Shown: positions 23,710 to 37,408 of the stretch, piece by piece | Layout of the letters: each line of letters begins with the position of its first letter | How positions within the stretch are numbered: the first letter of the stretch is position 1 | DNA from: Caulobacter sp. 602-1 | Lineage (GTDB): Bacteria > Pseudomonadota > Alphaproteobacteria > Caulobacterales > Caulobacteraceae | Length of the DNA: 64,000 bases | NCBI RefSeq assembly: GCF_003931565.1 | Contig: NZ_RRYI01000003.1 | Location: 310,001-374,000 of the forward strand | Reading direction: 5' to 3' | Position numbers and translations under genes: made by a program | Notes under the pieces: model-generated | Database searches by the model: none | Seen by the model: only the letters and a program-made list of their open reading frames with translations | Told to the model about the DNA's origin: nothing

Positions 23710-26700
23710 TCAGCCGCCCTTGCCGACCAAGGCCGAGCCGCGCCGCTCCAGCTTGCCCCAGCCGACCCGACCGCCGCGAACGGCCATGACCACCGACTTG
23801 ACCACGACATAGTACATCAGTTGGCGATAGCCGAACCGCTGCACCGGCAGGAACGGCAGGTCGGCCCAAGGCGCGCGCTTCTCCAGGGCCATGCCCAGGG
23901 CGCCGGCCGAAAGGTCGACGGCGATGAACACCGCCCAGTAGGCCAGGCCCAGCAGCATGTCGTCGGGCCGCCACTCCACCGGGTGGGCCACCGCCCCGTA
24001 GAGACCGGCGATCAGGCTCCAGACCACCGCCAGGTCGACCAGCGGCGCGGCCACCGCCAGGATGATCTGGAACAGCCAGATCTGCGGCAGGGCCACGAAG
24101 CCCAGCACCGGTGTCTTGGTGTTGAACATCGCCTTGCGGTGCTTCCACACGCATTGCAGCGTGCCGAACGACCAGCGGAAGCGCTGCTTCAGCAGGCCGC
24201 CGACCGTGTCCGGGGCCTCGGTATAGGCCCGCGCCTCGGGGTCGAAGGCGACCTTCCAGCCGGCGCGCTGGCAGGCGATGGTCAGGTCCTGGTCCTCGGC
24301 CAGGGTGTCCGACGGATAGCCGCCCAGCGCGTCGAGCACGCTCTTGCGCCACGCCCCGACGGCGCCCGGCACCACGGTGACCGCGCCCAGGGCCGACAGC
24401 GCCCGGCGCTCCAGGTTCTGGGCCGTGACATATTCCAGCGCCTGCCAGCGGGTGACGATATTGACCCGGTTGCCGACGATGGCGTTGCCGGCCACCGCGC
24501 CGATGTCCGGATCCTGGAACCAGCGGGCCAGGCGGCCGATGGTCTCGGGCGGGAACAGGGTGTCGGCGTCCAGGGCCACGACATATTCACCCTTGGCCAC
24601 GGCCAGGCCGCGATTGACCGCCCGCGCCTTGCCGCCGTTCTCGAACGACAGCAGCGTCACGCGCGGATCATTGGCGAAGTGGTCGCGGACCTCCTGGGCC
24701 GTGCGGTCCTTGGAGCCGTCGTCGAGAACCAGCACTTCGAGGTTCTTCCAGTCGCTCTCCAGGATCCGCGCCACCGAGGCGGCGATCACCTTCTCCTCGT
24801 TGAAGCAGGGGATCAGCACCGAGACCAGCGGGCCGTTCTCGCTATCGAGATCGGCGGGCTCCTCATGCGTCCAGAAGCGGTGGACCAGGGCGAGGCTGGC
24901 CAGGAACACCAGCCGCGCGACGCCCAGGAAGATCGCCGTGATGAACAGCCAGGTCATCGTGGCCTGGGCCCAGCGGAAGAAGTCGAAGCCCAGGCGGTCC
25001 AGGAACAGATCGGCCGCCGTGCGCGAGGTCGGCGGCATCACCTGTTGCGCGGTCATGCCGGCCAGTTCGCCGATGGTGACCAGGCGGTAGCCGCGGGCCC
25101 GGATCTGGTCGATCAGCCCTGGCAGGGCCGCGACGGTGCGGCTGCGGTCGCCGCCGGCGTCGTGCAGCAGCACCACCTGACCCGGACGATCGCCCGGGTT
25201 GTCGAGGCGCTCCAGCGTGCGGTCGATGATCGTCTGCGGGCTGGGCTTCTGCCAGTCGTCCGGGTCGATGCGCAGGCCCACGGTCATGTAGCCCAGGGTC
25301 TGGGCGATCACGAGCGGGGCCACTTCGTGCGGGGTCGAGGGCTCGGCGTCGCCGAAGAACGGCGGGCGGAAGAGACGCATCGAGCGGCCGGTCAGCACCT
25401 CGAACAGGCGCTGGGTGGCGTTCAGCTCGACCTGCACCTGCGGCAGCGGCGTCTCGGCGATGTTGGGGTGGGTCCAGCTGTGGCCGCCGACATTGTGTCC
25501 CTCGGCCACCTCGCGCTCCACCAGGTCGGGGCGGCGCTGCATGTTCTGGCCGATCACGAAGAAGGTCGCGGGCGCGTTCTTCTGCTTGAGGATGTCCAGG
25601 ATCTTCGGCGTCCAGCGGCCATCGGGGCCGTCGTCGAAGGTCAGGGCCACCAGACCCTTCTTCTCGCCATAGCGCTCGATCACATAGCTGCTGGGAATGA
25701 CGTCGTAGCTCTCGCCCGAAACCAGGCCGGTGTCGGGATCGAACTCCAGGCTGCGCTTGCCGGGCGTGGGCAGCTGGGCCACGCGCAGCACCTCGCCGCC
25801 GCCGTCGAAGTCGACGCCCTGGCCGTTGGCCAGGGTGGTGAGGCCGCTGGTCGAGGCCTGGCCGTAGGGCTTGCCCAGCAGCGACCAGACGCCCGGATCC
25901 TCCATGCCCATCCGCCACAGGCCATAGCCGCGCGGCTTCCAGGCGTCGGAGACCTTGATCTGGTTGAACAGGGTGACCGCGTCCAGGAACCAGACGACGT
26001 GCTCGTCGCCGCTGTCGTCGGTGTACTGATAGGTCGGATTCAGGGCGTTGTCGTCCATGCGGATCGTCGCCCCGGCGTCCTGGGCGTTGCGCATGGCCTC
26101 GTGGAAGGTGGCCGGCGCGCCGGACGCGCGCGAGCCGTCCTTGTTCAGCGTCCAGTCGTAGCCGTAGGCGCCGAGGGCCAGCACCACGCGGTTCGGATCG
26201 AGATGGGCGAAGCGCTTCTCCAGCTCGGTCTCGTACCAGTCCTGGCCTGCGTTGGGGCCGGGATCGCCCAGGGCGTAGTGCTCGTCATAGGCCATCAGCA
26301 CCAGGGTGTCGGAGGCTTGCTCCAGGCGCTTGAGCGGCCAGCCTTCCCCGTCGAACGGGGCGGTGACCCAGACCTCGCGGCCGGTCGCCGCCAGGGCGGC
26401 GCGGGCCTCGTTCAGGAACAGCGGATAGGCGGCCAGGCCCTTGGCCGAAAGGGCCTCGAAGTCGAAGACATAGCCGCCGTAACCGTGCTGGTCGGCCAGA
26501 ACCTTCAGGTTGTCGATCAGCTTGGCGCGGGCGGCAGGGTTGGTCAGCAGCGCGTCGGCCAGCGGTCCGTTGAAGGCGGCGTTGGCCGAGTTGTGGACCA
26601 GCGGCAGGACGGCCGGCTTGTTCGGGGCGTTGGCGATGCGGGCCACGCCCTCGGCGTCGTCGACCAGGCTGATGTCGCCCTTGGCGCCGTTGATCGCCAC

Positions 26701-27084
26701 CCACTGCGGCGAGACCACGTCCAGCTTGTCGATGTTGCGGCGCAGAGACTCGCGGCTGTCCTCGTCCCAGGCGACGTAGAAGCCGACCGATAGCGGATGG
26801 GCGGCGGCGTTGGGCGCGGCCTGGCCTTTTGCGGTGGGGGGCCGGGGCACGCGGCGCCACGACTTCACGATCTTGGTCTTGCGCGGCGTCTCCTGGTGCA
26901 GCGAGGTCAGGACGTGAGGGTCCTTCAGCGGCGCGTCGGGCAGGCGCGGGGCGAAGGCCAGGGTGGCGACGAAGCCCGCCACGATCGCCGCAATCAGCGA
27001 GATGATCACGCCGAGCACCAGCTTGGCCCGGCGCTCGCGCTTGCCGGTGGGGTCGTGAAAGATGTGGCGGTCTTCGGGGGTCAT
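23710..27084 (-). CDS. Three-domain protein: GH18-like hydrolase, polysaccharide deacetylase, family 2 glycosyltransferase
   Basis: The single 1124-residue chain has a cytoplasmic N-terminus and a membrane helix at about 22-45. A GH18-like barrel (100-405) follows, in which the DxE end of the catalytic motif is D208-x-E210. A NodB deacetylase (about 470-675) has TFDDGPD (D484, D485), the metal ligands H535 and H539, and FRPPFF. A second membrane segment (708-735) leads to a processive GT2 domain (750-1000) with VLDDGS, D839-x-D841, E930-D931 and QRFRW (967-971), then several C-terminal helices. This combines the parts of PgaB (deacetylase and hydrolase) and PgaC (synthase), so synthesis and partial deacetylation of a beta-linked amino-sugar polymer is inferred. 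The hydrolase/deacetylase part would face the periplasm and the GT2 the cytoplasm. The frame is continuous. Confidence 0.88.
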   Translation of the reverse strand: MTPEDRHIFHDPTGKRERRAKLVLGVIISLIAAIVAGFVATLAFAPRLPDAPLKDPHVLTSLHQETPRKTKIVKSWRRVPRPPTAKGQAAPNAAAHPLSVGFYVAWDEDSRESLRRNIDKLDVVSPQWVAINGAKGDISLVDDAEGVARIANAPNKPAVLPLVHNSANAAFNGPLADALLTNPAARAKLIDNLKVLADQHGYGGYVFDFEALSAKGLAAYPLFLNEARAALAATGREVWVTAPFDGEGWPLKRLEQASDTLVLMAYDEHYALGDPGPNAGQDWYETELEKRFAHLDPNRVVLALGAYGYDWTLNKDGSRASGAPATFHEAMRNAQDAGATIRMDDNALNPTYQYTDDSGDEHVVWFLDAVTLFNQIKVSDAWKPRGYGLWRMGMEDPGVWSLLGKPYGQASTSGLTTLANGQGVDFDGGGEVLRVAQLPTPGKRSLEFDPDTGLVSGESYDVIPSSYVIERYGEKKGLVALTFDDGPDGRWTPKILDILKQKNAPATFFVIGQNMQRRPDLVEREVAEGHNVGGHSWTHPNIAETPLPQVQVELNATQRLFEVLTGRSMRLFRPPFFGDAEPSTPHEVAPLVIAQTLGYMTVGLRIDPDDWQKPSPQTIIDRTLERLDNPGDRPGQVVLLHDAGGDRSRTVAALPGLIDQIRARGYRLVTIGELAGMTAQQVMPPTSRTAADLFLDRLGFDFFRWAQATMTWLFITAIFLGVARLVFLASLALVHRFWTHEEPADLDSENGPLVSVLIPCFNEEKVIAASVARILESDWKNLEVLVLDDGSKDRTAQEVRDHFANDPRVTLLSFENGGKARAVNRGLAVAKGEYVVALDADTLFPPETIGRLARWFQDPDIGAVAGNAIVGNRVNIVTRWQALEYVTAQNLERRALSALGAVTVVPGAVGAWRKSVLDALGGYPSDTLAEDQDLTIACQRAGWKVAFDPEARAYTEAPDTVGGLLKQRFRWSFGTLQCVWKHRKAMFNTKTPVLGFVALPQIWLFQIILAVAAPLVDLAVVWSLIAGLYGAVAHPVEWRPDDMLLGLAYWAVFIAVDLSAGALGMALEKRAPWADLPFLPVQRFGYRQLMYYVVVKSVVMAVRGGRVGWGKLERRGSALVGKGG

Positions 27085-27181: not shown

Positions 27182-28507
27182 CTACTCCACCCAATCCTGG
27201 TCGAGACGGCGCGAGGCCAGGAAGAACAGCAGGGCCGCCAGCAAATAGAAGCCCATGCCGGTATAGATCGCCCACCGCAGAGATTCCGCCCCGAAGGTCG
27301 GCTTCAGGAGGTCGGACATCGCACCGAAATAATAGACTCCGACGGCGATGCCCAAAAGGTTATTGATCAGCAGGAACAGGGCCGAGGCCGTGGTCCGCAT
27401 GGGCGCGGGCGCCAGGTGCTGCACGGCGGCGGTGACCGGGCCCAGCCAGGCCAGGTTCAGGCCCGTGGGGACCAGGAAGATCACGAAGGCCAGGGCCAGG
27501 GACGCGGTCCCGCCCAGGCCGCCCACCAGCGATCCGCTGTTCATGGCCAGCAGGAAGCAGGGCACCGAGATCAGGAAGGCCACGGCCGGGGTCAGCGGAT
27601 AGCCGGCCTTGGACTTGGCGCCCAGGCGGTCGGCCATCACGCCGCCCATCCAGATGCCGACCACCCCGCCCAGGAAGGCGATGCCCGAATAGTACCAGGC
27701 GGTCTGGGCCAGGGTCAGGCCCAGGCTGCGCATGAAGAACGACGGCAGCCAGGCCGCGACGCCATAGCCGCAGACCGACGAAGAGGCCGCGCCCAGGGCG
27801 AGCAGCCAGAAGCTGGGCTTGGCCGCCAGCAGGCGGGCCACCTCGCCCAGCGGCGCGGCCGGAGCCGGCGCGACCGGCGGCGCGTTCGGCGCGCGATCGG
27901 CGCCGCCGCGCGGCGGGTCGCGGACGACGAGGCGGAAGATCGGGGCCAGGACGACGCCCAGAGCGCCGACGACGATGAAGGCCGTCCGCCAGCCGTAGTG
28001 AACGGCCAGCAGCCCCCCCACCAAGGTGCCGGCCGCCGTGCCCAGCGGGATGCCGAACGCGTAGGCCGCAAGGGCCCGGGCGCGCTGATGCTTGGGGAAA
28101 TAGTCCGAGATCAGCGAATAGGCCGGGGCCACGCCGCCCGCCTCGCCGATGCCCACGCCCATGCGGGCCAGGAACAGATGCGAGAAGCTGCCGACCACGC
28201 CGCACAGGGCGGTGAAGCCGCTCCACAGGGTCAGGGCCGCCGTCATGATCCAGACGCGGCTGAAGCGGTCGGCCAGCCAGGCGATCGGGATGGCCAGGGT
28301 CGTGTAGAGCAGGGCGAAGGCCAGGCCGCCCATCAGGCCGAACTGGGCGTCGGTCAGGCCGAACTCGTCCTTGATCGGCTTGGCCAGGATGCCGAGAATC
28401 TGCCGGTCCAGGAAGTTGAAGGTGTAGGCGAGGATCAGCATCGCCAGGACCAGGTAGCGATAACCCGACCCTTGCGTCTTCGCTTCCGCCTGCTGCTGCT
28501 CGCTCAT
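27182..28507 (-). CDS. Spinster-type MFS transporter
   Basis: The 441-residue, 12-helix protein opens helix 1 with LAYTFNFLDRQILGILA, typical of the spinster/GlpT-related MFS branch common beside TonB receptors in Caulobacter and sphingomonads. Motif A is ADRFSRVWIM, and GEAGGVAPAYSLISDYFP lies in helices 4-5. It would move a small organic molecule across the inner membrane. It lies 90 bases downstream of the TonB-dependent receptor gene, but a strong terminator sits between them, so it probably needs its own promoter or readthrough. The substrate may be the same compound as the receptor's, by position only. Confidence 0.87.
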   Translation of the reverse strand: MSEQQQAEAKTQGSGYRYLVLAMLILAYTFNFLDRQILGILAKPIKDEFGLTDAQFGLMGGLAFALLYTTLAIPIAWLADRFSRVWIMTAALTLWSGFTALCGVVGSFSHLFLARMGVGIGEAGGVAPAYSLISDYFPKHQRARALAAYAFGIPLGTAAGTLVGGLLAVHYGWRTAFIVVGALGVVLAPIFRLVVRDPPRGGADRAPNAPPVAPAPAAPLGEVARLLAAKPSFWLLALGAASSSVCGYGVAAWLPSFFMRSLGLTLAQTAWYYSGIAFLGGVVGIWMGGVMADRLGAKSKAGYPLTPAVAFLISVPCFLLAMNSGSLVGGLGGTASLALAFVIFLVPTGLNLAWLGPVTAAVQHLAPAPMRTTASALFLLINNLLGIAVGVYYFGAMSDLLKPTFGAESLRWAIYTGMGFYLLAALLFFLASRRLDQDWVE

Positions 28508-28540
28508 GCTCGCCCCCTACGCCACTGCCTCTGTCTACAT

Positions 28541-28577
28541 AAAGAAAGGGCGGGACTTGTTGCAGCAAGTCCCGCCC
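28541..28577 (-). terminator. Intrinsic terminator of the TonB receptor gene
   Basis: On the minus strand a 12-bp stem (arms GGGCGGGACTTG and CAAGTCCCGCCC, 28548-28559 with 28566-28577) with a six-base loop runs into TTTCTTT. It lies 20 bases after the receptor stop and before the MFS start. Confidence 0.88.
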
Positions 28578-28597
28578 GAGCTAGGTCGCCTAGATAA

Positions 28598-30838
28598 TTA
28601 GAACGCCACCTCGATCGAGCCGGCGAAGGTGCGCGGCGGACCGTAGAAGCCGATCACCGAGTTGTTGTAGGTCGGCGCCCCGAAGTTGTAGCCGCCCGTG
28701 CGGTACTTCTCGTTGGTCAGGTTCTTGCCGGTGAAGGCCAGCTTGTACTTGCCGCCCGGCGCGGTCCAGATCGCCGTCAGGTCGACCAGGGTGAAGGCCT
28801 TCTGGTCGAGGGCCGGCAGCGGCTGTTCGAACTGCTGGTACTTGTCGCGGTAGCTGACCATCGGGGTGATGGCGATGTCGCCGCCGGCCAGATCCGCGCG
28901 CCAGGTCAGGCTGACATTGCCCGTCCATTGCGGCGTGTTCTGGAAGCCGTAGAGGTCGGCGACGTTGACCACCTGGCCGGTGGCCAGGGTCGTCGACGGG
29001 TTCAGCGGGTTCGGCGCGCCAGCCGGCACAAAGCGGCTGAAGGTGTCGTACTTGGCGTGGATATAGCCGAGCGCGACATTGCCGGTCAGGTGCTGGCTAA
29101 ACTTGGCGGTGGCTTCGAACTCGGCCCCGTACAGGGTCGAGGCGCCGGCGTTGTCGACCGAGCTGGCGATGCCCGAGGGCACCACGACCTGGGTCGTGAC
29201 CTGCTGATTGGTATATTTCGACAGGAAGATCGCCGACGAGAACGACACGTGGCGGTCCAGGGCGTAGCCCTTCAGGCCGGCCTCGTAGGTCTTCACGATT
29301 TCCGGCAGGTAGCCCTGGGTCGTCTGCGGGGTGATGAACGCGTCGCCGCGCATGTCCCAGCCGCCCGACTTGTAGCCCTTCGAGAACGAGGCGTAGGTGT
29401 TCAGGTCGTCGCTGAGCTCGTACGAGACCGAGATGCGCGGCGTGAACTGCTCGAAGGTGCGAGCCGCGTCATAGTTGGTCCGCACCTGCAGGATCGGACG
29501 GTTGGCGCCGCCCTGATACGGCGACGGCGTGGCGCCGAGATAGAAGAAGCGGAACACGTTGGCGCGCTTGTGGTCGCGGGTGGCGCGGGCGCCCAGCGAG
29601 ACCTTCAGGCGATCGGTCAGATTGGCGCTGAAGTCGAAGAACGCCGCGAAGCTCTGGGTGTTGACCTTGCCGCCGTCGGCGATCGAGACGCCCAGGTTGC
29701 CGGCGATGGTGTCGAACTCGCCCGAGGCCTGGCTGTTCATGTAGTACAGGCCGAAGACGCCCTGGACGTTCTCATCCGAATAGACCGCCTGCAGCTCCTG
29801 CGAGAACGAGCGGTCGTCATAGGTGGCCGGCACGTCCAGCGTCGGCAGCGGGGTGCCGTCGAAGTCGATCAGGGTCTGGGTGTGACCCTTGCGGTTGGCG
29901 GTAATCGACTTGAAGGTCAGGTTCTGGGTGGCGTCCCACTGGCCGGTCAGCGACAGGCCTTCGGTCTGGACACGGTTCTTGTCGCCCAGGCCGGCTTGCG
30001 TGTCGTAGATGTCGAGGATCGGATAATTGCCGACGGTCGGCAGGGTCTCGCGGTGACCGTGACGCGGGTTCGACTTGTCCACGACCTTGTCATAGGCCAG
30101 GCGGAAGAACAGATCCTGCGTGGGCTTGTACTCGGCGCTCAGGCGATAGGCCTGGACGTCCTTATCGTACTGGTCGGCGCCCGTGGTCAGGTTCTTGCCA
30201 TAGCCGTCGCGCTTGTAGAGGGCGTAGGCGCCGCCGACCGACAGGCCGCCGCCGACCGGCGTCTGGCCGGAGACCATCAGGTCGGTCTGGTTGTAGCTGC
30301 CATAGGTCGCGCGGACCTTGGCGCCGGCCTCGTCGCCCAGGCGCCTGGTCACGTACTTGATGGCGCCGCCGATGGTGTTGCGGCCATACAGCGTGCCCTG
30401 CGGGCCGCGCAGCACTTCGATGCGCTCGATGTCGAAGATGTCCAGCACCGCGCCCTGCGGACGGTAGATGTAGACGTCGTCGACATAGAGGCCGACGCCG
30501 GGCTCGTAGCCCCACAGCGGATCCTGCTGGCCGACGCCGCGGATGTAGCTGATCAGGGTCGAGTTCGAGCCACGGGCGGTCTGCACCGTGATGTTCGGGG
30601 TCGTCTGCGAGAGCACGGTGATGTCCGTGCCGCCCGAGCGTTCCAGCTTCTCGGCCGAGAAGGCCGAGACGGCCACCGGCACGTCCTTGAGATTTTCCTC
30701 GCGACGACGGGCGGTGACGACCACCTCGTCGACCGAGACATCATTGCTCGCCGCCGGAGCCTCTTGCGCCGACGCGACGCCCGCGATCGTGCTCCACGCC
30801 GCGCCAGCCAACAGCGCAGCCTTCCACATCGAAGTCAT
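28598..30838 (-). CDS. TonB-dependent outer-membrane receptor
   Basis: The 746-residue protein has a signal peptide ending near VASAQ, a TonB-box-like VDEVVVTARR, and the plug domain with GTLYGRNTIGGAIKYVTRR. The 22-strand barrel follows, ending with SIEVAF (terminal Phe). The ribosome-binding site GGGAGG lies about eight bases before the ATG at 30838. There are no siderophore-specific neighbours. The gene lies between a TetR regulator upstream and a spinster MFS downstream, close to a Tat-exported carotenoid/stilbene oxygenase, so uptake of a hydrophobic aromatic or apocarotenoid compound is a reasonable guess. A 24-bp palindrome 131 bases upstream is a likely regulator site. Confidence 0.93.
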   Translation of the reverse strand: MTSMWKAALLAGAAWSTIAGVASAQEAPAASNDVSVDEVVVTARRREENLKDVPVAVSAFSAEKLERSGGTDITVLSQTTPNITVQTARGSNSTLISYIRGVGQQDPLWGYEPGVGLYVDDVYIYRPQGAVLDIFDIERIEVLRGPQGTLYGRNTIGGAIKYVTRRLGDEAGAKVRATYGSYNQTDLMVSGQTPVGGGLSVGGAYALYKRDGYGKNLTTGADQYDKDVQAYRLSAEYKPTQDLFFRLAYDKVVDKSNPRHGHRETLPTVGNYPILDIYDTQAGLGDKNRVQTEGLSLTGQWDATQNLTFKSITANRKGHTQTLIDFDGTPLPTLDVPATYDDRSFSQELQAVYSDENVQGVFGLYYMNSQASGEFDTIAGNLGVSIADGGKVNTQSFAAFFDFSANLTDRLKVSLGARATRDHKRANVFRFFYLGATPSPYQGGANRPILQVRTNYDAARTFEQFTPRISVSYELSDDLNTYASFSKGYKSGGWDMRGDAFITPQTTQGYLPEIVKTYEAGLKGYALDRHVSFSSAIFLSKYTNQQVTTQVVVPSGIASSVDNAGASTLYGAEFEATAKFSQHLTGNVALGYIHAKYDTFSRFVPAGAPNPLNPSTTLATGQVVNVADLYGFQNTPQWTGNVSLTWRADLAGGDIAITPMVSYRDKYQQFEQPLPALDQKAFTLVDLTAIWTAPGGKYKLAFTGKNLTNEKYRTGGYNFGAPTYNNSVIGFYGPPRTFAGSIEVAF

Positions 30839-30968
30839 GGGGTTCCCTCCCTTGCGTTCCGCCCGTCCGAGCCGGATCCGTCTTGTGCGGACGCGTGCTC
30901 GGGGTTCGCCATTTCATCGAACAGCGAATTGAAGGCACCATCACCCGAACCGGCGCCGGACGCCAGCA

Positions 30969-30992
30969 CTTTTTCATCAGGTGATGAAAAAG
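30969..30992. promoter_or_regulatory. Perfect palindromic operator upstream of the TonB receptor gene
   Basis: Two exact 11-base arms, CTTTTTCATCA and TGATGAAAAAG, are separated by GG. The site lies between the tetR stop and the receptor start, in AT-richer DNA than its surroundings. Its size and symmetry fit a TetR-family operator. As an RNA hairpin it would lack a GC-rich stem and a following T-run, so a terminator is less likely. Confidence 0.75.
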
Positions 30993-31036
30993 GATCGGGG
31001 ACGGATGACGCCTCCCCGCACGCGGGGAGGATCTTG

Positions 31037-31744
31037 CTATAGGGCCTTGGCGATCACCGCTTCGAAGCCAGCCGCGCAGTATGAGAACAGGCGCCGGCGC
31101 ACCGCCTCCAGGTCGCTGGAGCGGCACTCGCCTTCCGACAGCGAGTCGATCCGCCCGGTCTCGGACAGCGACAGCATCATCGACCCGGTCAGGAACTGGT
31201 AGCACCAGTAGAGGTCGCGGTACTCGGCCTGGGGACGGACGATCTTCAGGGTCTCGACCAGCTGATGGACCACCGGATCGAAGAACCGGGCCATGGTCTC
31301 GCCGCCCCAGGCCGGGGTGTTGTTCACCTGGGCGACCAGGGCGAAGTAGCTCTTCCAGCCGGGCCCGCCGTCCTGGGAGATGCGCAGCAGCGGATCGATG
31401 AAGGCCTCGATCACGCCCTCGACGGTCATGGTGGACGCGTCATGCGCCGCCACGTAGGCGTTCATCGACGCCTCGCGCACCTGGTTCAGGATCTGCGCCC
31501 TACGCACGAACACCGCGTCGAACAGCTCCCGCTTGGCGCCGAAATAGTAGTGGATCAGCGCCGTGTCGACGCCGGCCTCGGCCGCCACCTGCCGCGTCGT
31601 CACGCCATGGAAACCGTGACGAGCGAACAGCCCCTCCGCGGCGTCGAGGATGGTTTCCTTCAGGTCCAGGCCCTTGGCCTTCGACGGTCGGCCCCGCCCG
31701 CTGGCGCGGACCCCGTTACGGGATGGGGGCTTGGCTGCGGTCAT
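31037..31744 (-). CDS. TetR-family transcriptional regulator
   Basis: The product is 235 residues from the ATG at 31744; an in-frame ATG 16 codons upstream has no better ribosome-binding site. The helix-turn-helix is typical: ILDAAEGLFARHGFHGVTTRQ into VAAEAGVDTALIHYYFGAKRELF. The basic N-terminal extension (RNGVRASGRGRPSKAKG) is common in this family. The C-terminal ligand domain contains WGGETMARFFDPVV. It sits between the oxygenase and the receptor genes, all on one strand, with the palindrome immediately downstream of its stop, so it most likely controls the receptor and perhaps its own region. Confidence 0.9.
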   Translation of the reverse strand: MTAAKPPSRNGVRASGRGRPSKAKGLDLKETILDAAEGLFARHGFHGVTTRQVAAEAGVDTALIHYYFGAKRELFDAVFVRRAQILNQVREASMNAYVAAHDASTMTVEGVIEAFIDPLLRISQDGGPGWKSYFALVAQVNNTPAWGGETMARFFDPVVHQLVETLKIVRPQAEYRDLYWCYQFLTGSMMLSLSETGRIDSLSEGECRSSDLEAVRRRLFSYCAAGFEAVIAKAL

Positions 31745-31823
31745 GGAGTGGGAGGTCCGCCGTGGTTGCGCTCCGTCCTCGGATAGGCGCATCCCGGCGG
31801 ACCTGGCAAGGGACCGGCGTTAT

Positions 31824-33287
31824 CTAGGCCTGGGCGAACACGCCGTGGAAGGTCACCGGCAGAGCCACGGGCGCCCGCCAGGAGACCACCGGGCCTTGCC
31901 GCACAAGGCGCGCGTCGAAGACGTGCAGCTCTGTGGCCTTGGCGTCGAGATTGACCGTCGTGCCGACCAGCCAGCCGTCCAGTTCCTCGGAAGATCTTGG
32001 GCGCGGAACGAACACCATCTCCTCGACGAGGTGGCGCGGACCGAAGTCGAACACCTGGTCGCTGTCCTTCTTCCAGTCGCGGACGGCCACGCTCTGGAAC
32101 AGCGGACGGTCGGGCCGCTCGTTGGTGACGTGAACGGAGTAGCGACGCGCCAGGCCGGCGAAGCGCGGGTCCGAACGGGGGAATTCGGCGCTCACCGTCT
32201 CGCGGGCCAGCTCGGCCCGGCCGTCGGCGCGCAGGGTGATCAGGGCCCGGCTCGGCGGCGCGGCGCGGATGGCCTTGCCCCGCAGAAGCGCCCCGGCGTT
32301 GGCGGCCGTGCCGAAGGGGTTCTCGTCCAGGCAGGCGTCGAAGCGGAGGGTCCCGTCGGCGTCCTCCCAGGCGTCGCCCAGGTGGAAGAAGAAGAACGGC
32401 GGCAGCTCGAACACCCGGCGCCGGCTCAGGTCGTCCTTGTCCAGCACCAGCACCTGGGTCCCGAGCTCCGGCTTCCAGGCCATGGACGCGTTGAACGGCA
32501 TGGCGAACCGCTCCCGCACCCAGGGCTGCAGCACCAGGATCAGGTGGCGCGCGGTGGCGGTGAAGTCGTGCATGTAGCTGGCGCGCGGCAAGGCGATCAT
32601 CTCGGCCTTCTGGAGCGCGCCGTCCGGCGCGAGCTTCCAGACCACCGCGTCCTTGCCGCCCAGGCCGATGTTCCAGATCGTCCCGTCCGGCTGGACGCGC
32701 GGATGCGCCAGGAACGGCATGCCCTTCAGATCCTGCCGCAGCGTCTTGACGCCCCGGGTCTCCAGGGTCGCCGGGTCCAGGGCGATCGGCGAGCCGCCTT
32801 CCCACAGGGCCCACAGCTCGCCGCCAGCCATCAGCACCGAGGTGTTGGCGGCGTTGGCGTCGTCGGGTCCGGTGATCACCGAACCCTTGCCGGGCGCAGT
32901 GCCGTAGCCGGGCGTGATCACGGCGTTCGCGGCCGTGTCGTTGCGGCGTTTCACCGTGTCGACGAAGCGGGCGCTCATCCGAGCCTGGCCGCCGCCGATC
33001 TGGAACTTGCGGACCATGTCGTCGCCGTCGAACCAGTGCCCGACATCGCCGCCCGGGCGGTGGAACTTGGCCGGCCCGTTGCGGAAGAGGGTTCCGGAGA
33101 GCTCGGCCGGCGCCTTGCCATGCAGGCGGGTCAGGCCGGTCGGCGCGACGTCGGCTTCGACATCGGCCAGGCCCAGGATCCAGTCCCCGGCCTTGGCGTT
33201 GGCCGCCGCCGCCCAGACAGCCTCGGGGGTCAGGAGAGAAGCGCCGCCCAGCAGGGCCGCGCCACGCAGGATGTCGCGTCGATTCAT
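31824..33287 (-). CDS. Tat-exported carotenoid/stilbene cleavage oxygenase
   Basis: The 487-residue protein belongs to the carotenoid oxygenase (RPE65/lignostilbene dioxygenase) family. Its four Fe(II) ligands can be placed at H194 (FLAHPRVQPDG), H239 (SYMHDFTAT), H301 (FFFFHLGDAWE) and H481 (TFHGVF near the C-terminus). The N-terminus MNRRDILRGAALLGGASLL carries a twin-arginine motif and hydrophobic region, with cleavage near WAAA, so a folded, metal-loaded enzyme would act in the periplasm. Family members cleave C=C bonds of carotenoids, apocarotenoids or stilbenes such as lignin fragments; which applies here cannot be decided. It follows the DUF2141 gene by 12 bases in what looks like an operon with DUF2306. 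Confidence 0.9.
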   Translation of the reverse strand: MNRRDILRGAALLGGASLLTPEAVWAAAANAKAGDWILGLADVEADVAPTGLTRLHGKAPAELSGTLFRNGPAKFHRPGGDVGHWFDGDDMVRKFQIGGGQARMSARFVDTVKRRNDTAANAVITPGYGTAPGKGSVITGPDDANAANTSVLMAGGELWALWEGGSPIALDPATLETRGVKTLRQDLKGMPFLAHPRVQPDGTIWNIGLGGKDAVVWKLAPDGALQKAEMIALPRASYMHDFTATARHLILVLQPWVRERFAMPFNASMAWKPELGTQVLVLDKDDLSRRRVFELPPFFFFHLGDAWEDADGTLRFDACLDENPFGTAANAGALLRGKAIRAAPPSRALITLRADGRAELARETVSAEFPRSDPRFAGLARRYSVHVTNERPDRPLFQSVAVRDWKKDSDQVFDFGPRHLVEEMVFVPRPRSSEELDGWLVGTTVNLDAKATELHVFDARLVRQGPVVSWRAPVALPVTFHGVFAQA

Positions 33288-33299
33288 CGCTTCGGCTCT

Positions 33300-33746
33300 C
33301 TAGCGCAGATGGAGGACTTGGGTGGTCGCGTCGGCCTTCACCGCGAAGGCGGCGGCGTCGAAGCTGGGCGGGCCCATGTTCGGCTGGGCGTCATTGGAGA
33401 AGCCATATGGCTCGACCGGCATGCCGAAGGGGTTGGTCCCCATCTTGCCGTCGCCGTCGACGTCCTGGAACGCGCGGACGGCATAGGTCCCGGGCGGCAG
33501 GGCGACGATCTTGGCGGCGGGTTCGGCGTCCGAAGCCGAGGCCTGGGCGACGCGGGCCGGCTTGCCGGAGCTCCAGCCCTGGGCGCTGTCATAGACGGCG
33601 ATCATCACCTTGCCGGACTTCGAGGCCAGGGCGGGGAAGGTCAGGGTCAGGTCAGCAAAGCCCGCTTGGGGGGTGGCGTCCTGGGCGTGGGCGGCCGGAG
33701 CGATCAGCGCCGCGGCGGCGAGAGCGATAGTCAGGGTCTTGAACAT
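33300..33746 (-). CDS. DUF2141 secreted protein
   Basis: The 148-residue protein has a signal peptide (LTIALAAAALIAPAAHAQ). The mature domain has the DUF2141 pattern: GKVMIAVYDS, LPPGTYAVRAFQDVDGDGKM, then NPFGMPVEPYGFSND and GPPSFDAAAF. The DVDGDGKM loop looks like a calcium-binding loop. Function is unknown. It lies between the DUF2306 membrane protein and the periplasmic oxygenase, 12 bases before the latter, so it probably works in the same periplasmic pathway. Confidence 0.88.
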   Translation of the reverse strand: MFKTLTIALAAAALIAPAAHAQDATPQAGFADLTLTFPALASKSGKVMIAVYDSAQGWSSGKPARVAQASASDAEPAAKIVALPPGTYAVRAFQDVDGDGKMGTNPFGMPVEPYGFSNDAQPNMGPPSFDAAAFAVKADATTQVLHLR

Positions 33747-33779
33747 GGCGAGGTCCTTTTTCGATGAAGTGTGAGCGGG

Positions 33780-34340
33780 TCAGCCCAGGAACACGGTCCA
33801 GAGCAGGCGGCCGGGGATGAGGGCGAAGAGGCCGGCGATCAGCAGACCGCCGACGAACATGGCGGTCATGGCCCTGCGGTGGCCGCGGACATTGCCGCGC
33901 TTGATCGCGTAAACGGCGCCGGGCAGACCGACGATCGCCCAGCCCGACAGCAGGTGGATGAAGCTGAAGTGGCCGTGGTTCAGCTGGCGGATGAACAGCG
34001 AGCTGACGGCCGTCACGCCCATGGCCGCCACCCAGGTCCAGCCCAGCACCTTGTGCAGGTTCGTGCCCTTGACCCGCGCCATCAGCGCAATCCCGATGAT
34101 CAGGGACGTGACGGCGGCCGTCAGGTGGATCCGCACGGCCGGCGGCGCGGCGGCGATCAGGGCCAGGTTCGGCGCATGGGGGTGGACGCCGCGCTCCGCC
34201 AGAAAACCGGCCATGCCGGTGAACATGCCAGGAGCCGCGACGCCGACCACGCCGACTGCCAGCGCGACGCCCACGGCGGCGTTTCTCAGGGTGTCGTTGC
34301 GAAGCGCCGCCAGCGCGATTGACTTGCCGTTCGCATCCAT
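33780..34340 (-). CDS. DUF2306 membrane protein
   Basis: The 186-residue protein has about five hydrophobic segments and the DUF2306-like features: RIHLTAAVTSLIIGIALMAR, the HKVLGWTWVAAMGVTAVSS helix, HGHFSFIHLLSG and GNVRGHRRAMTAMF. Conserved histidines in these segments might bind haem or metal, which is inference. It is the first gene of the minus-strand set that continues with DUF2141 and the oxygenase, and it diverges from the LytTR gene 146 bases away. Confidence 0.8.
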   Translation of the reverse strand: MDANGKSIALAALRNDTLRNAAVGVALAVGVVGVAAPGMFTGMAGFLAERGVHPHAPNLALIAAAPPAVRIHLTAAVTSLIIGIALMARVKGTNLHKVLGWTWVAAMGVTAVSSLFIRQLNHGHFSFIHLLSGWAIVGLPGAVYAIKRGNVRGHRRAMTAMFVGGLLIAGLFALIPGRLLWTVFLG

Positions 34341-34486
34341 CTTCCTTCACTCCCGGTTCGGTCCGGCGGGTTCGTCTCGCCGTCGAAAGCCTTGTTGGAG
34401 TGGGCCTTCTCTTGTCTCAATCGCCGTTGCGCCAATCGCCGCCGTCCCTTCGTGAGCGGTTGGGGGACGCCGTTCACGCTTCGCGA

Positions 34487-35227
34487 ATGGCGCTGACCTC
34501 GCGCGAGGCGGTGCGCGGTTATCTGGTGTCCGGCGGAGCCGGCGTGTTCCTGGCGCTGATCGGCGCCCTGGGCTCGGGCCAGGCGCCGCTGTTCACGCGG
34601 CTGGCCTACTGGGTGGGACTGTGCGTCGCCGGCGCGGTCGTGGGCACGGGCGTCACCCAGGTGATCGGCCGCGACGGCCGCGCCGACGGCAACCCCTGGC
34701 TCTACGGCGCCCTGACGGTCATCGCCATCACCCTGCCGTTCACGGCCTTCGTGTGGTTCGTCAGCGAGAGCGTGTTCCAGCGCGGGATCCGGATGGAGAC
34801 CCTGCCCCGCTACCTGGCGCCGGTGTTCGTCGTCACGGTGGGCATGACGGCCCTGAACTTCCTGGTCCAGCGCGAACCCGCCCAGACCCATTCGGCCCCG
34901 ACCGGCGCCCCGGCCCCGCGCTTCCTGGATCGCCTGCCGGCCAAGCTGCGCGGCGCCGAGCTCTTCGCCGTCGAGGCCGACGACCATTATCTGCGCCTGC
35001 ACACCTCGCGCGGCCAGGACCTGATCCTGATGCGCCTGTCCGACGCCGTGGCCGAACTGGAGGGCATCGAGGGCGCCCAGACCCATCGCTCGTGGTGGGT
35101 GGCCAAGGCGGCGGTCGAGGGCGCCCGGCGCGGCGACGGCCGGGCGACCCTGCGGCTGAAGGGCGATGTCGAGGCACCCGTCAGCCGCGCCTACGCCAAG
35201 GCGTTGCGCGAGAGCGGCTGGTTCTGA
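34487..35227 (+). CDS. LytTR-domain regulator with N-terminal membrane helices
   Basis: From the ATG at 34487 the product is 246 residues. Four hydrophobic segments (for example GYLVSGGAGVFLALIG and WLYGALTVIAITLPFTAFV) precede a LytTR DNA-binding domain at about 150-246 with AELFAVEADDHYLRLHTSRG and AQTHRSWWVAKAAVEG. There is no response-regulator receiver domain, so this is a membrane-bound one-component type of regulator. The open frame extends upstream to 34319, overlapping the divergent DUF2306 start, and the true start is uncertain because no strong ribosome-binding site is visible. Its position suggests that it controls the DUF2306-DUF2141-oxygenase genes. The C-terminus ends 15 bases from the convergent RsaA-like gene. 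Confidence 0.85.
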   Translation: MALTSREAVRGYLVSGGAGVFLALIGALGSGQAPLFTRLAYWVGLCVAGAVVGTGVTQVIGRDGRADGNPWLYGALTVIAITLPFTAFVWFVSESVFQRGIRMETLPRYLAPVFVVTVGMTALNFLVQREPAQTHSAPTGAPAPRFLDRLPAKLRGAELFAVEADDHYLRLHTSRGQDLILMRLSDAVAELEGIEGAQTHRSWWVAKAAVEGARRGDGRATLRLKGDVEAPVSRAYAKALRESGWF

Positions 35228-35242
35228 TCAGCCGCCATTCGC

Positions 35243-37408
35243 TCAGCCGAAGTGGATGTCGGCGCTGGCCGCGCCAGTCCCGACGGTCAGGCCGACGACG
35301 CCGACCAGCTTGATCAGACCGTCGCCGACATTGACCCCCACCGTGGCGTCCTGGTGGTAGATGTAGGTGTCGCCGTTCCACTCGAAGACCGCCGTGGCGT
35401 TGGCCGACACCTGGCTGGAGGCGTTGATCAGCGCCTGTTCCAGCGTGGTGGCGGAGCCGGCGCTGATGCCGGTGGTCACCGCCGAGATCACCGTCCCCAG
35501 GTCGACGTGGTCGACGCCCTTCTCGAAGTCGGTGAGGGTGGCGAAGGCGGTCACCTTGTTGTTCTCGACGCCGAGGTTCGAGAAGCGCGGCGCGGAGACG
35601 CCGTTCTCGTACAGCTTGAAGACGTCCGAGCCCGCGCCCAGGGTGAAGGTCGACACGGACGCCCCAAGCAGGTCGGCGGCCACGCTGTCATTGTAGGCCG
35701 ACAGCACGACGGTGTTCGGGACGCCGCCGGAGCCGCCGATCCCGAGGACGTCGATCCCCGCCGAGCTGGAGGCGTCCAGGTTGTGGGTCGTGAGGTTGTA
35801 GCCGCCCTCGCTGCCGATGAAGTTGGCGGTCAGGTGGCCGGTCCCGACAACGACGACCTTGCCGCTGGAGTAAGGTCCGTTGACGGTCTGCGAGTTGATG
35901 AGGGCCAGCGTGCTGTCGCTCTGGACGTGCACGACCAGCGCCCCGTCATTGCCGGTGACCACCAGCTGGGTCGGCGTGGCGTTGCTGCTGGTGACGTTGT
36001 TCAGATAGGCGTTCACGACAGGGGCCCCGACCTGCGTCGAGGACATGCCGGTGATCACCAGGTCGACGTGGTAGTTGACCTTCAGCGTGCCGCCGGTGAC
36101 CCCGTCCATCTTCAGCGCCACGTTCTGGGCGAGGTTGTCGATCCGCGTCGAGATCGACGACTTCAGGGTGACGTCCTGCAGGCCAGTGTAGTTCGTGGCC
36201 ACCAGCGGCATGACCGTGGTCGTGCCCAGGGTCGGCGAGGTGAATGACAGCTTGAAGTTCTCGAGCACCAGGTGCTCGACATTGGTGATCTGGGTCTTGT
36301 CGAACAGGTCGGTGTCGGCGCCCATCACCAGGGTGTCGTCGCCGGCGCCGCCGTCGACGATGGCGCCGTTGATCATCTTGCCGACCGTGATCAGGTCGTT
36401 GCCGGCGCCGCCGCTGATCTTGCCGTTCGGCGCGCCGCCCAGCACGTCCACCGCTGCGTTCAGCTGACCGACGGTGATCGTGTCGTTGCCGTCGCCGCCG
36501 TCGATATAGCCGCCGACCGCGCCCGAGAAGGTGACGGAGTCGTGGCCGCCGCTGACGAGGATCGCGCCGCTGTTGGTCGTTCCCGTGACCGTGTCGTTGT
36601 TGGTCGTCGAACGCAGGGCCGCGTTGGTCGCGTCGGGCGAGACGCTCTGGGTGTCGGTCACCGCGATGGTCGCGCCGGCGGCGAAGGTCGGCTGTTCGCC
36701 ATAGGTCCCGACCAGGCTGGTGTTGAAGCTCGCCTGGCCATCGTTGGCGAGGTCGGCGAGGAAGGCGTCATTGGCCTTGGCGTAGACGCCGATGTGCTCG
36801 TTCGCGGCCACGGCCAGCAGGAAGCCGACCATGGCGCCCTTGGTCCCCAGGCCGTTCGCGCCGTCGCCGCCGTAATAGGCGAAGTACTCGGCGCGGGTGA
36901 AGGTCCCGCCCAGGCCGTTGGGCACCTGGGCGGTCAGGATGGTGTCGATCAGGCCCGCCGCCGGCGCGAAGCCGAAGATCTCGCCATAGGCCTTGGTCGC
37001 CGCGGCGGCCAGGTCCAGCGACCCGTAAGCGGCGGTGAAAGCGTCCTTGCCCGCGCCGTTCTTGCCCAGATTGACCGCGAAATTGATGAAGCGGTTCTCG
37101 GCCGAGAACGACTGGTAATAGGCCGAGTTCAGGTTGTTGGGGTTCCCGCCGTTCGGCGAGATCAGATAGTCCAGGCCGAACGCCGTCGGTGTCGCCCCGG
37201 TGAAGAAGTTGTACGAGAGGTTGGCCACCGTGGTGGACGCGGTCACCAGCTTGGCGATCTCGATGCGCGCGTCGGTCAGACTCAGGGTCGCGGCGTCAAC
37301 GCGCCCGGCCAGGGTCTGCAGCGCGGTCAGATCCGCCGCCGGGATGTTGGCGAACGGGAGACGCGAGACGTCGCTATAGGCGGATTGCAGAACTTGAAGC
37401 GTAGCCAT
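35243..37408 (-). CDS. RsaA-like RTX surface protein, predicted type I secretion substrate
   Basis: The 721-residue protein has no signal peptide. Its N-terminal region resembles the anchor end of the Caulobacter S-layer protein RsaA: YNFFTGATPTAFGLDYL (66-82), SAYYQSFSAENRFINFAVNL (95-114) and AAATKAYGEIFG. Residues 287-362 contain RTX nonapeptide-like repeats (GGDGNDTI, GGAGNDLI, GGAGDDTL) that bind calcium. The last 80 residues, with a VFEWNGDTYIYHQD block and a hydrophobic end, resemble the RsaA C-terminal secretion signal. It is shorter than RsaA (about 1026 residues). I compare with RsaA from memory, without an alignment. A type I transporter is not adjacent. An S-layer accessory, a second surface-layer protein or an adhesin are the main options. 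Confidence 0.85.
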   Translation of the reverse strand: MATLQVLQSAYSDVSRLPFANIPAADLTALQTLAGRVDAATLSLTDARIEIAKLVTASTTVANLSYNFFTGATPTAFGLDYLISPNGGNPNNLNSAYYQSFSAENRFINFAVNLGKNGAGKDAFTAAYGSLDLAAAATKAYGEIFGFAPAAGLIDTILTAQVPNGLGGTFTRAEYFAYYGGDGANGLGTKGAMVGFLLAVAANEHIGVYAKANDAFLADLANDGQASFNTSLVGTYGEQPTFAAGATIAVTDTQSVSPDATNAALRSTTNNDTVTGTTNSGAILVSGGHDSVTFSGAVGGYIDGGDGNDTITVGQLNAAVDVLGGAPNGKISGGAGNDLITVGKMINGAIVDGGAGDDTLVMGADTDLFDKTQITNVEHLVLENFKLSFTSPTLGTTTVMPLVATNYTGLQDVTLKSSISTRIDNLAQNVALKMDGVTGGTLKVNYHVDLVITGMSSTQVGAPVVNAYLNNVTSSNATPTQLVVTGNDGALVVHVQSDSTLALINSQTVNGPYSSGKVVVVGTGHLTANFIGSEGGYNLTTHNLDASSSAGIDVLGIGGSGGVPNTVVLSAYNDSVAADLLGASVSTFTLGAGSDVFKLYENGVSAPRFSNLGVENNKVTAFATLTDFEKGVDHVDLGTVISAVTTGISAGSATTLEQALINASSQVSANATAVFEWNGDTYIYHQDATVGVNVGDGLIKLVGVVGLTVGTGAASADIHFG

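Follow-up and report, generated by a model that had tools for sequence, protein, structure and literature searches.

The carotenoid-oxygenase-family gene of Caulobacter sp. 602-1 raises the question of what its product cleaves and which of its neighbours work with it. We analysed a 64-kb window, the whole stretch of DNA under study, in which a sequence-only reading had described one uptake locus for lignin stilbenes or apocarotenoids. All seven genes were confirmed where that reading had placed them, as six minus-strand genes head to tail and a divergent LytTR gene, and 7/7 had a Pfam match over cut-off. The features are as follows:

27182..28507, minus strand: MFS transporter (PF07690, 166.1 bits, cut-off 33.4)
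28548..28577, minus strand: intrinsic terminator with a 12-bp stem and a T-rich tail, between the receptor and MFS genes
28598..30838, minus strand: TonB-dependent receptor (PF00593 and PF07715 over cut-off)
30969..30992, no strand: perfect palindrome CTTTTTCATCA-CC-TGATGAAAAAG, candidate TetR operator, ~150 bp before the receptor gene
31037..31792, minus strand: TetR-family regulator (TetR_C_30; best NCBIfam match PsrA, below cut-off)
31824..33287, minus strand: twin-arginine carotenoid-oxygenase-family enzyme (PF03055, 325.5 bits, cut-off 27)
33300..33746, minus strand: DUF2141 protein, core partner (PF09912, 104.5 bits, cut-off 24.4)
33780..34340, minus strand: DUF2306 membrane protein, accessory (PF10067, 34.9 bits, cut-off 31.6)
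34319..35227, plus strand: LytTR regulator, start uncertain (PF04397, 55.6 bits, cut-off 22.6)

Gene order was compared in 63 Caulobacteraceae loci (62 distinct, as L003 and L035 are one contig), 16 loci from elsewhere and 23 control loci. Sixty of the Caulobacteraceae loci were fetched from 59 genomes (two from G099), hand-picked across genera; the source set was 105 genomes with listed orthologs at 50% identity or more, and the second G099 locus (L088, about 39% identity) was included. Twenty controls were hand-picked Caulobacteraceae paralogs with ~3.4 kb on each side (some less), a span wide enough to test for DUF2141 and LytTR but too short to test for receptor and MFS; three more, L118 and L119 (whose N-termini both carry RR) and L120, brought the total to 23. 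Neighbour counts were redone by profile search, because the gene caller missed or merged some short genes.

This comparison, which the sequence-only reading had proposed as a check, revealed a neighbourhood conserved around a DUF2141-oxygenase core. The DUF2141 gene was directly upstream of the oxygenase gene on the same strand in 62/63 Caulobacteraceae loci (L078 has the oxygenase without it) and upstream in 15/16 loci outside the family, the sole miss (L108) being a locus whose contig ends immediately before the oxygenase gene; DUF2141 was upstream of none of the other oxygenases in the 23 control loci. The constant partner of the oxygenase is therefore DUF2141 and not the receptor, a point absent from the earlier description. 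The gap between the two genes was 5 to 82 nt (60 loci measured, with hand-chosen starts), and they are very likely co-transcribed. All of the aligned DUF2141 relatives (30/30) matched the PF09912 model. In a quick tree search without bootstrap (60 sequences, of which 28 came from the 63 Caulobacteraceae loci and 13 from the 20 paralogs; the branches of L120, L122, L088 and L111 were flagged as long), the DUF2141-linked oxygenases formed one clade with one change of linkage.

A LytTR gene was usually nearby: at a distance of up to 3.2 kb from the oxygenase gene, it was present in 43/63 Caulobacteraceae loci, 12/16 other loci and 0/23 controls. The regulator has about four membrane segments predicted from hydropathy. 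Translation of its gene probably begins somewhere from 34400 to 34493, since the start called by the program (TTG at 34319) overlaps the DUF2306 gene and homology in distant relatives starts only at about codon 31-34. The frequency of LytTR beside the pair, together with importer genes in 0/16 loci outside the family, favours an alternative in which the core has mainly a signalling or housekeeping role: it would make or destroy an apocarotenoid-like signal, or clear damaged envelope polyenes, with LytTR as the responder and uptake genes as later additions. We consider this unlikely, as no such signal is known and LytTR was not found in 20/63 Caulobacteraceae and 4/16 other loci (one of these four cut by a contig end).

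The remaining genes form a more variable layer. Outside Caulobacteraceae, TetR, receptor, MFS and DUF2306 were found in 0/16 loci; within the family, the first three occurred in about half of the loci. TetR lay within 4 kb of the oxygenase in 36/63 Caulobacteraceae loci, and a TetR match was also present in 10/23 control loci. DUF2306, present in 19/63, has five hydrophobic segments and five His invariant in 12 aligned relatives. The receptor and MFS were thus beside the oxygenase in none of the 16 loci outside Caulobacteraceae, which goes against importer genes being integral to the pathway. The "three-way regulation" described previously comes down to two regulators, TetR and LytTR.

The layout also argues against the single operon that had been read from it. 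TetR and receptor genes are separated by 198 bp, and the 90-bp gap between receptor and MFS genes holds a strong terminator, so these gaps speak for at least three predicted transcription units among the six minus-strand genes. Behind the receptor gene, the best T-tailed hairpin was more stable than that of each of 20 same-stretch shuffles in 21/21 loci tested (2/23 loci with a gap over 400 bp were excluded); in a separate folding run, 16 of 17 named loci were folded. The palindrome before the receptor gene is the sole genomic site at up to 3 mismatches (the reversed-pattern control gave 0), and it was conserved in 20 aligned loci (19 distinct, given the shared contig), with a mean column conservation of 0.88 vs. 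0.49 and 0.55 in the flanks. It was absent from 9 loci with a divergent TetR (9 mismatches at best), and 8/9 of these have a different sequence in common. This candidate operator probably lets the adjacent TetR control the receptor gene. A sigma-70-like promoter was not found in the region. Given the gap, the conserved terminator before the MFS gene and the operator-like palindrome before the receptor gene, a single six-gene operon appears unlikely.

The oxygenase has the RR motif (MNRRDIL) of a twin-arginine signal, as had been noticed from the sequence, and the two positions were R in 77/79 and 76/79 aligned oxygenase rows, the remainder being gaps (62 of the 63 Caulobacteraceae loci were aligned; L044 had no usable start). 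By its predicted Tat export, the enzyme would act in the periplasm. All four Fe-binding His were kept in 79/79 rows; with the ATG at 33287 as codon 1, they are H195, H240, H302 and H481, so that the first three had previously been numbered one too low (H194, H239 and H301). Trp162 occupies the site of the stilbene-binding Lys in the alignment, and this site was Trp in 76/79 rows, including 62/62 Caulobacteraceae rows; the apocarotenoid oxygenase ACO has the same residue. In the available part of PMC8191317, Lys-134 of lignostilbene dioxygenase holds the 4-hydroxyl of phenolic stilbenes and Tyr-101 also has a role.

These residues bear on the substrate first proposed, a lignin-derived stilbene or phenylpropene cleaved by an exported periplasmic enzyme. 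The best PDB sequence matches of the oxygenase were NOV1-type enzymes, its Y128 aligns with NOV1 Tyr101, and its highest NCBIfam score came from the lignostilbene model NF053778; moreover, the family member Cso2 of Caulobacter segnis is reported to cleave isoeugenol and 4-vinylguaiacol (PMC6700365, available part). Against this, the phenol-holding Lys is replaced by Trp, the Tyr position is Phe in 64/79 rows, and the lignostilbene score is far below the family cut-off (162.1 bits, cut-off 800), as is that of NF052295, 8'-apo-carotenoid 13,14-cleaving dioxygenase (149.6 bits, cut-off 675). A stilbene or phenylpropene substrate is in our judgement quite improbable. The Lys is nevertheless a poor sorter of substrates, because the Lys-bearing stilbene enzyme PbLSD is reported to have weak activity on carotenoids (PMC6097328, available part). 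The idea of one stilbene or apocarotenoid uptake locus stands for the exported-type oxygenase, its iron site and the conserved neighbourhood, but not for lignin stilbenes, a single operon or integral importers.

ACO has four His, and neither a Tat signal nor a partner of the DUF2141 or LytTR kind is known for it. It (PDB 2biw) belongs to the same enzyme family as the window oxygenase, with an ALWEGG..P motif and Trp at the stilbene-Lys position, but it is distant (E 1.7e-35), and only this Trp/Glu motif is common to the window oxygenase and apocarotenoid oxygenases. NOV1/LSD4, unlike the window oxygenase, are not known to carry a Tat signal or to have these gene neighbours. They (PDB 5j53; PMC8191317) have the iron site and the Tyr position in common with it, while their Lys-134 is Trp here. 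Cso2 matches in enzyme family and genus, and relatives of it at 50-70% occur in Agrobacterium, Kaistia and Rhodococcus (PMC6700365, available part). Window-type oxygenases reach at most about 44% outside Caulobacteraceae (a partial match; full-length ones 42%) among the matches found. Judged by the published description of Cso2, the host paralog L120, which lacks a Tat motif and reaches up to 54% in Cupriavidus plasmids, would be the likelier Cso2-type gene of the host.

Next, we considered where a carotenoid substrate could come from. A search of the host genome for CrtI and CrtY gave neither over cut-off, and any carotenoid substrate would have to be taken from the surroundings; the host's own carotenoids are not supported as substrate, and scavenging of apocarotenoids or carotenoids fits. 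Presence of crt genes did not track the ortholog over the family: crtI or crtY was present in 38/105 genomes with the ortholog vs. 38/144 without (Fisher p 0.13, kinship ignored). In the host's genus, the ortholog was even rarer alongside crt genes (15/28 vs. 23/28, p 0.044, kinship ignored). The rhodopsin family, examined for a link to retinal, had no match in any control genome. Two independent links of DUF2141 to carotenoids support the reading that we prefer below. It adjoins the carotenoid hydroxylase gene crtG in Sphingomonadales (PMC5989583 and PMC9241875, available parts); a term search of the main text of PMC5989583 returned no "carotenoid oxygenase", "LytTR" or "TonB". DUF2141 also adjoins a crt cluster in genome G173; this genome aside, it was within 100 kb of crtY in none of 14 crt-bearing genomes examined.

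The 67/105 ortholog-bearing genomes in which neither crtI nor crtY exceeded cut-off, and the DUF2141 genes at loci without crt genes, are also what would be expected if the substrate were another hydrophobic alkene (an isoprenoid quinone tail, a terpene or an unsaturated lipid) and the link of DUF2141 to crt genes were coincidental. To our knowledge, however, all characterised members of the family act on carotenoids, apocarotenoids, retinoids, stilbenes or phenylpropenes, and we regard another alkene as distinctly unlikely.

The reading we prefer, to which we give about an even chance, has the oxygenase cleave a carotenoid-like polyene in the periplasm, partnered by DUF2141, in a locus of two layers. 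The core, as conserved gene order shows, comprises DUF2141 and the Tat-signal oxygenase, usually with an opposite-strand membrane LytTR. Both proteins of the pair would be periplasmic; the Fe(II) enzyme would split a double bond of a non-phenolic polyene, DUF2141 may bind or present the hydrophobic substrate or product, and LytTR would sense the membrane or the compound and set expression. In the Caulobacteraceae layer, the TonB receptor, probably under the neighbouring TetR, would bring the compound in from outside and the separately transcribed MFS would move the product; any carotenoid cleaved in this host, where neither CrtI nor CrtY exceeded cut-off, would be of foreign origin. More speculatively, DUF2141 could be a periplasmic polyene carrier or presenter that forms, with the Tat oxygenase and LytTR, a widespread proteobacterial envelope system for sensing and cleaving polyenes, through which carotenoid-less Caulobacter use foreign carotenoids; we hold this wider reading only tentatively.

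The near-constant adjacency to the oxygenase makes the role of DUF2141 testable, and a domain family without known function thereby gains a specific partner and chemistry. It was listed among correlated DUFs, with no function given, in the available part of a marine metagenome study (PMC3597751), and no description of its pairing with an oxygenase was found in the freely accessible literature searched. The analysis also defines a Tat-signal branch of carotenoid oxygenases, acting outside the cytoplasm if exported, and leads us to suggest that carotenoids of other organisms may be processed by bacteria that have no carotenoid genes themselves.

DUF2141 and DUF2306 profiles gave best E values of 0.94 and 0.57 against PDB sequences, and Foldseek with their models, which were poor (mean pLDDT 59 and 58), gave no match under E 0.001. 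The DUF2141 protein has a hydrophobic, signal-like N-terminal segment, a Ca-loop-like motif (DVDGDGKM) and the motif NPFG.P.EP..FSN, and its model appears to resemble a beta-sandwich, with weak CnaB-type matches and nothing firm.

All seven genes claimed in the sequence-only reading are present in the window, as judged from its sequence and from profile matches. The host genome is Caulobacter-like, and the nearest named relative found was Caulobacter sp. Root343, whose oxygenase is 85% identical. Gene order was compared in 63 Caulobacteraceae loci (60 loci of at most 19.5 kb, the window, L003 and L004; L003 and L035, both in this set, are one and the same contig), with family membership of the fetched genomes assigned via named relatives. 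The outside-family set held 16 loci (14 same-class genomes and two plasmids, from Variovorax sp. PDNC026 and Alisedimentitalea scapharcae), and 23 loci of other carotenoid oxygenases served as controls. Neighbours were counted with profiles built in this analysis.

The constant unit was a DUF2141 gene upstream of the oxygenase gene on the same strand, present in 62/63 Caulobacteraceae loci, 15/16 outside-family loci and none of the 23 controls. In one exception (L078) no DUF2141 was seen in the stretch upstream of the oxygenase; in the other (L108) the contig end cuts the region where it would be. The gap between the two genes is 5 to 82 nt (60 loci measured, start codons picked by the analyst). 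A LytTR gene was often nearby, within 3.2 kb of the oxygenase in 43/63, 12/16 and 0/23 loci respectively; where present, it was divergent and upstream in 32/43 Caulobacteraceae and 11/12 outside-family loci, and all the others have it downstream. The distributed annotation of the Alisedimentitalea plasmid likewise gives a DUF2141 protein, a carotenoid oxygenase and, further down, a LytTR protein. A quick tree built from 60 sequences without bootstrap unites the DUF2141-linked enzymes in one clade (SH-aLRT 99; 44 rows including the cut L108), and a single change suffices to explain the linkage. Given this clade, the conserved upstream position and the single change, DUF2141 linkage is the mark of an oxygenase subfamily rather than chance adjacency. 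This subfamily, a DUF2141 and Tat-oxygenase pair with a LytTR neighbour, is the find worth keeping. The N-terminus of the DUF2141 protein is hydrophobic and signal-like, and simple hydropathy gives LytTR about four membrane segments. Regulation and the role of DUF2141 are inferred. L048, L093 and L094 each have a second DUF2141 copy next to their LytTR gene.

The remaining genes form a Caulobacteraceae layer. TetR (36/63), the TonB receptor (33/63), MFS (31/63) and DUF2306 (19/63) were found near the pair within the family, and none of the four in the 16 outside-family loci by profile search. The presence of TetR nearby says little by itself, because TetR matches also lie near 10/23 control oxygenases. 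Tandem loci carry the palindrome TTCAYCA-NN-TGRTGAA, with an A-rich end, approximately 150-190 bp before the receptor gene. It was found at up to five mismatches in 22/63 loci, and its conservation was 0.88 vs. 0.49 and 0.55 in the flanks (20 aligned rows). At up to three mismatches the host genome contains only one such palindrome, and none of the reversed control pattern. This candidate operator would be bound by TetR. In L065-L072 and L093, a probably Brevundimonas-like group, the TetR and LytTR genes are both downstream, on the opposite strand, with TetR divergent from the receptor gene. The divergent TetR/receptor gaps (L065-L072) carry a different sequence, AAAATCATTGAACGCTGAATAA, identical in 8/9, which is possibly the operator there.

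A hairpin with a T-rich tail follows the receptor gene and was more stable than each of 20 shuffles in 21/21 loci tested; such a site was also located in the window. With this terminator-like hairpin behind the receptor and the palindrome before it, a single operon for the six head-to-tail genes is unlikely. Three putative units (DUF2306-DUF2141-oxygenase-TetR, the receptor, and MFS) would be the better view. The sequence-only reading was right in what it observed and half right in its interpretation.

The oxygenase N-terminus, MNRRDIL, contains the twin-arginine motif reported earlier, and the enzyme would be exported to the periplasm. All four Fe-ligand histidines are kept, as H195, H240, H302 and H481 counted from the ATG (the first three had been numbered one too low). 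In lignostilbene dioxygenases the substrate 4-hydroxyl is held by Tyr-101 and Lys-134, according to the part of PMC8191317 consulted. Aligned to the lignostilbene dioxygenase NOV1, these correspond to Y128 and W162 of the window oxygenase, so that the latter has Trp where lignostilbene dioxygenases have Lys. Trp occupies this site in 62/62 Caulobacteraceae rows and 76/79 rows of a wider alignment, the other three (L118, L119 and L120) all lacking DUF2141 linkage; the Tyr-101 position is Phe in 64/79. The apocarotenoid oxygenase ACO shares both the Trp and an ALWEGG motif at the Lys-134 site. These features speak for a non-phenolic substrate class without naming which. Weak activity on carotenoids is reported for PbLSD, a stilbene enzyme in which the Lys is present (PMC6097328, in the part consulted). 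The NCBIfam lignostilbene and apocarotenoid models both match the window oxygenase far below cut-off.

Orthologs at ≥50% identity were listed in 105/249 genomes of the family. CrtI or CrtY exceeded the profile's own cut-off in 38 of the 105 genomes with the ortholog (the other 67 have neither) vs. 38/144 lacking it (Fisher p 0.13). Within the host's genus the figures were 15/28 vs. 23/28 (p 0.044, uncorrected for kinship), and here the ortholog is less frequent where crt genes are present. In the host, profile search found neither CrtI nor CrtY over cut-off (for CrtY the match was a fragment of 21 bits, for CrtI E 1.8e-26 at best). A carotenoid substrate, if that is it, would therefore come from outside, which would suit the TonB receptor.

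DUF2141, of unknown function, adjoins crtG in many Sphingomonadales, as stated in the consulted part of PMC5989583 and again for Qipengyuania in that of PMC9241875. In the same-genus genome G173 (L123, 7215-12493), a DUF2141 gene and a glycosyltransferase gene converge where a crt cluster borders on them. The cluster has genes for a polyprenyl synthetase, an FA_hydroxylase/CrtZ-like protein and a phytoene synthase, with CrtI and CrtY located by profile search. Of 14 other crt-bearing genomes, one lacks DUF2141 and 13 have it, none within 100 kb of crtY; DUF2141 is also present at loci without crt genes, and both observations count against a DUF2141-carotenoid link. A DxDGDGK-like loop, kept in most DUF2141 relatives, suggests possible Ca binding.

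The DUF2306 protein was studied by alignment of invariant histidines and with a low-confidence model.

Window 33780-34340, minus strand: DUF2306 protein

Five histidines (H55, H72, H96, H129 and H154) are invariant in 12 relatives, all 12 of which give a weak DUF420 match, and in the model four of the five sit close to where the last four long helices begin. As a guess, H72/H129 and H96/H154 might thus be two pairs on opposite membrane sides, as in b561-type di-haem proteins. A second pairing of DUF2141 and DUF2306 was seen in genome G139 (L131, 6693-7801), where a DUF2141 gene lies beside a DUF2306-like gene (28.3 bits, below the cut-off of 31.6) and no oxygenase was found.

Two further genes flank the locus.

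Window 23710-27084, minus strand: 1124-residue protein that combines a GH18-like domain, a polysaccharide deacetylase domain and a family 2 glycosyltransferase domain in one chain
Window 35243-37408, minus strand: protein carrying a domain of S-layer type (RsaA N-terminal), its gene convergent with that for LytTR

Homologs of the first follow the MFS gene in 14/63 loci, the window and one duplicate counted, and the second has a homolog in one other locus (L037) among the 63.
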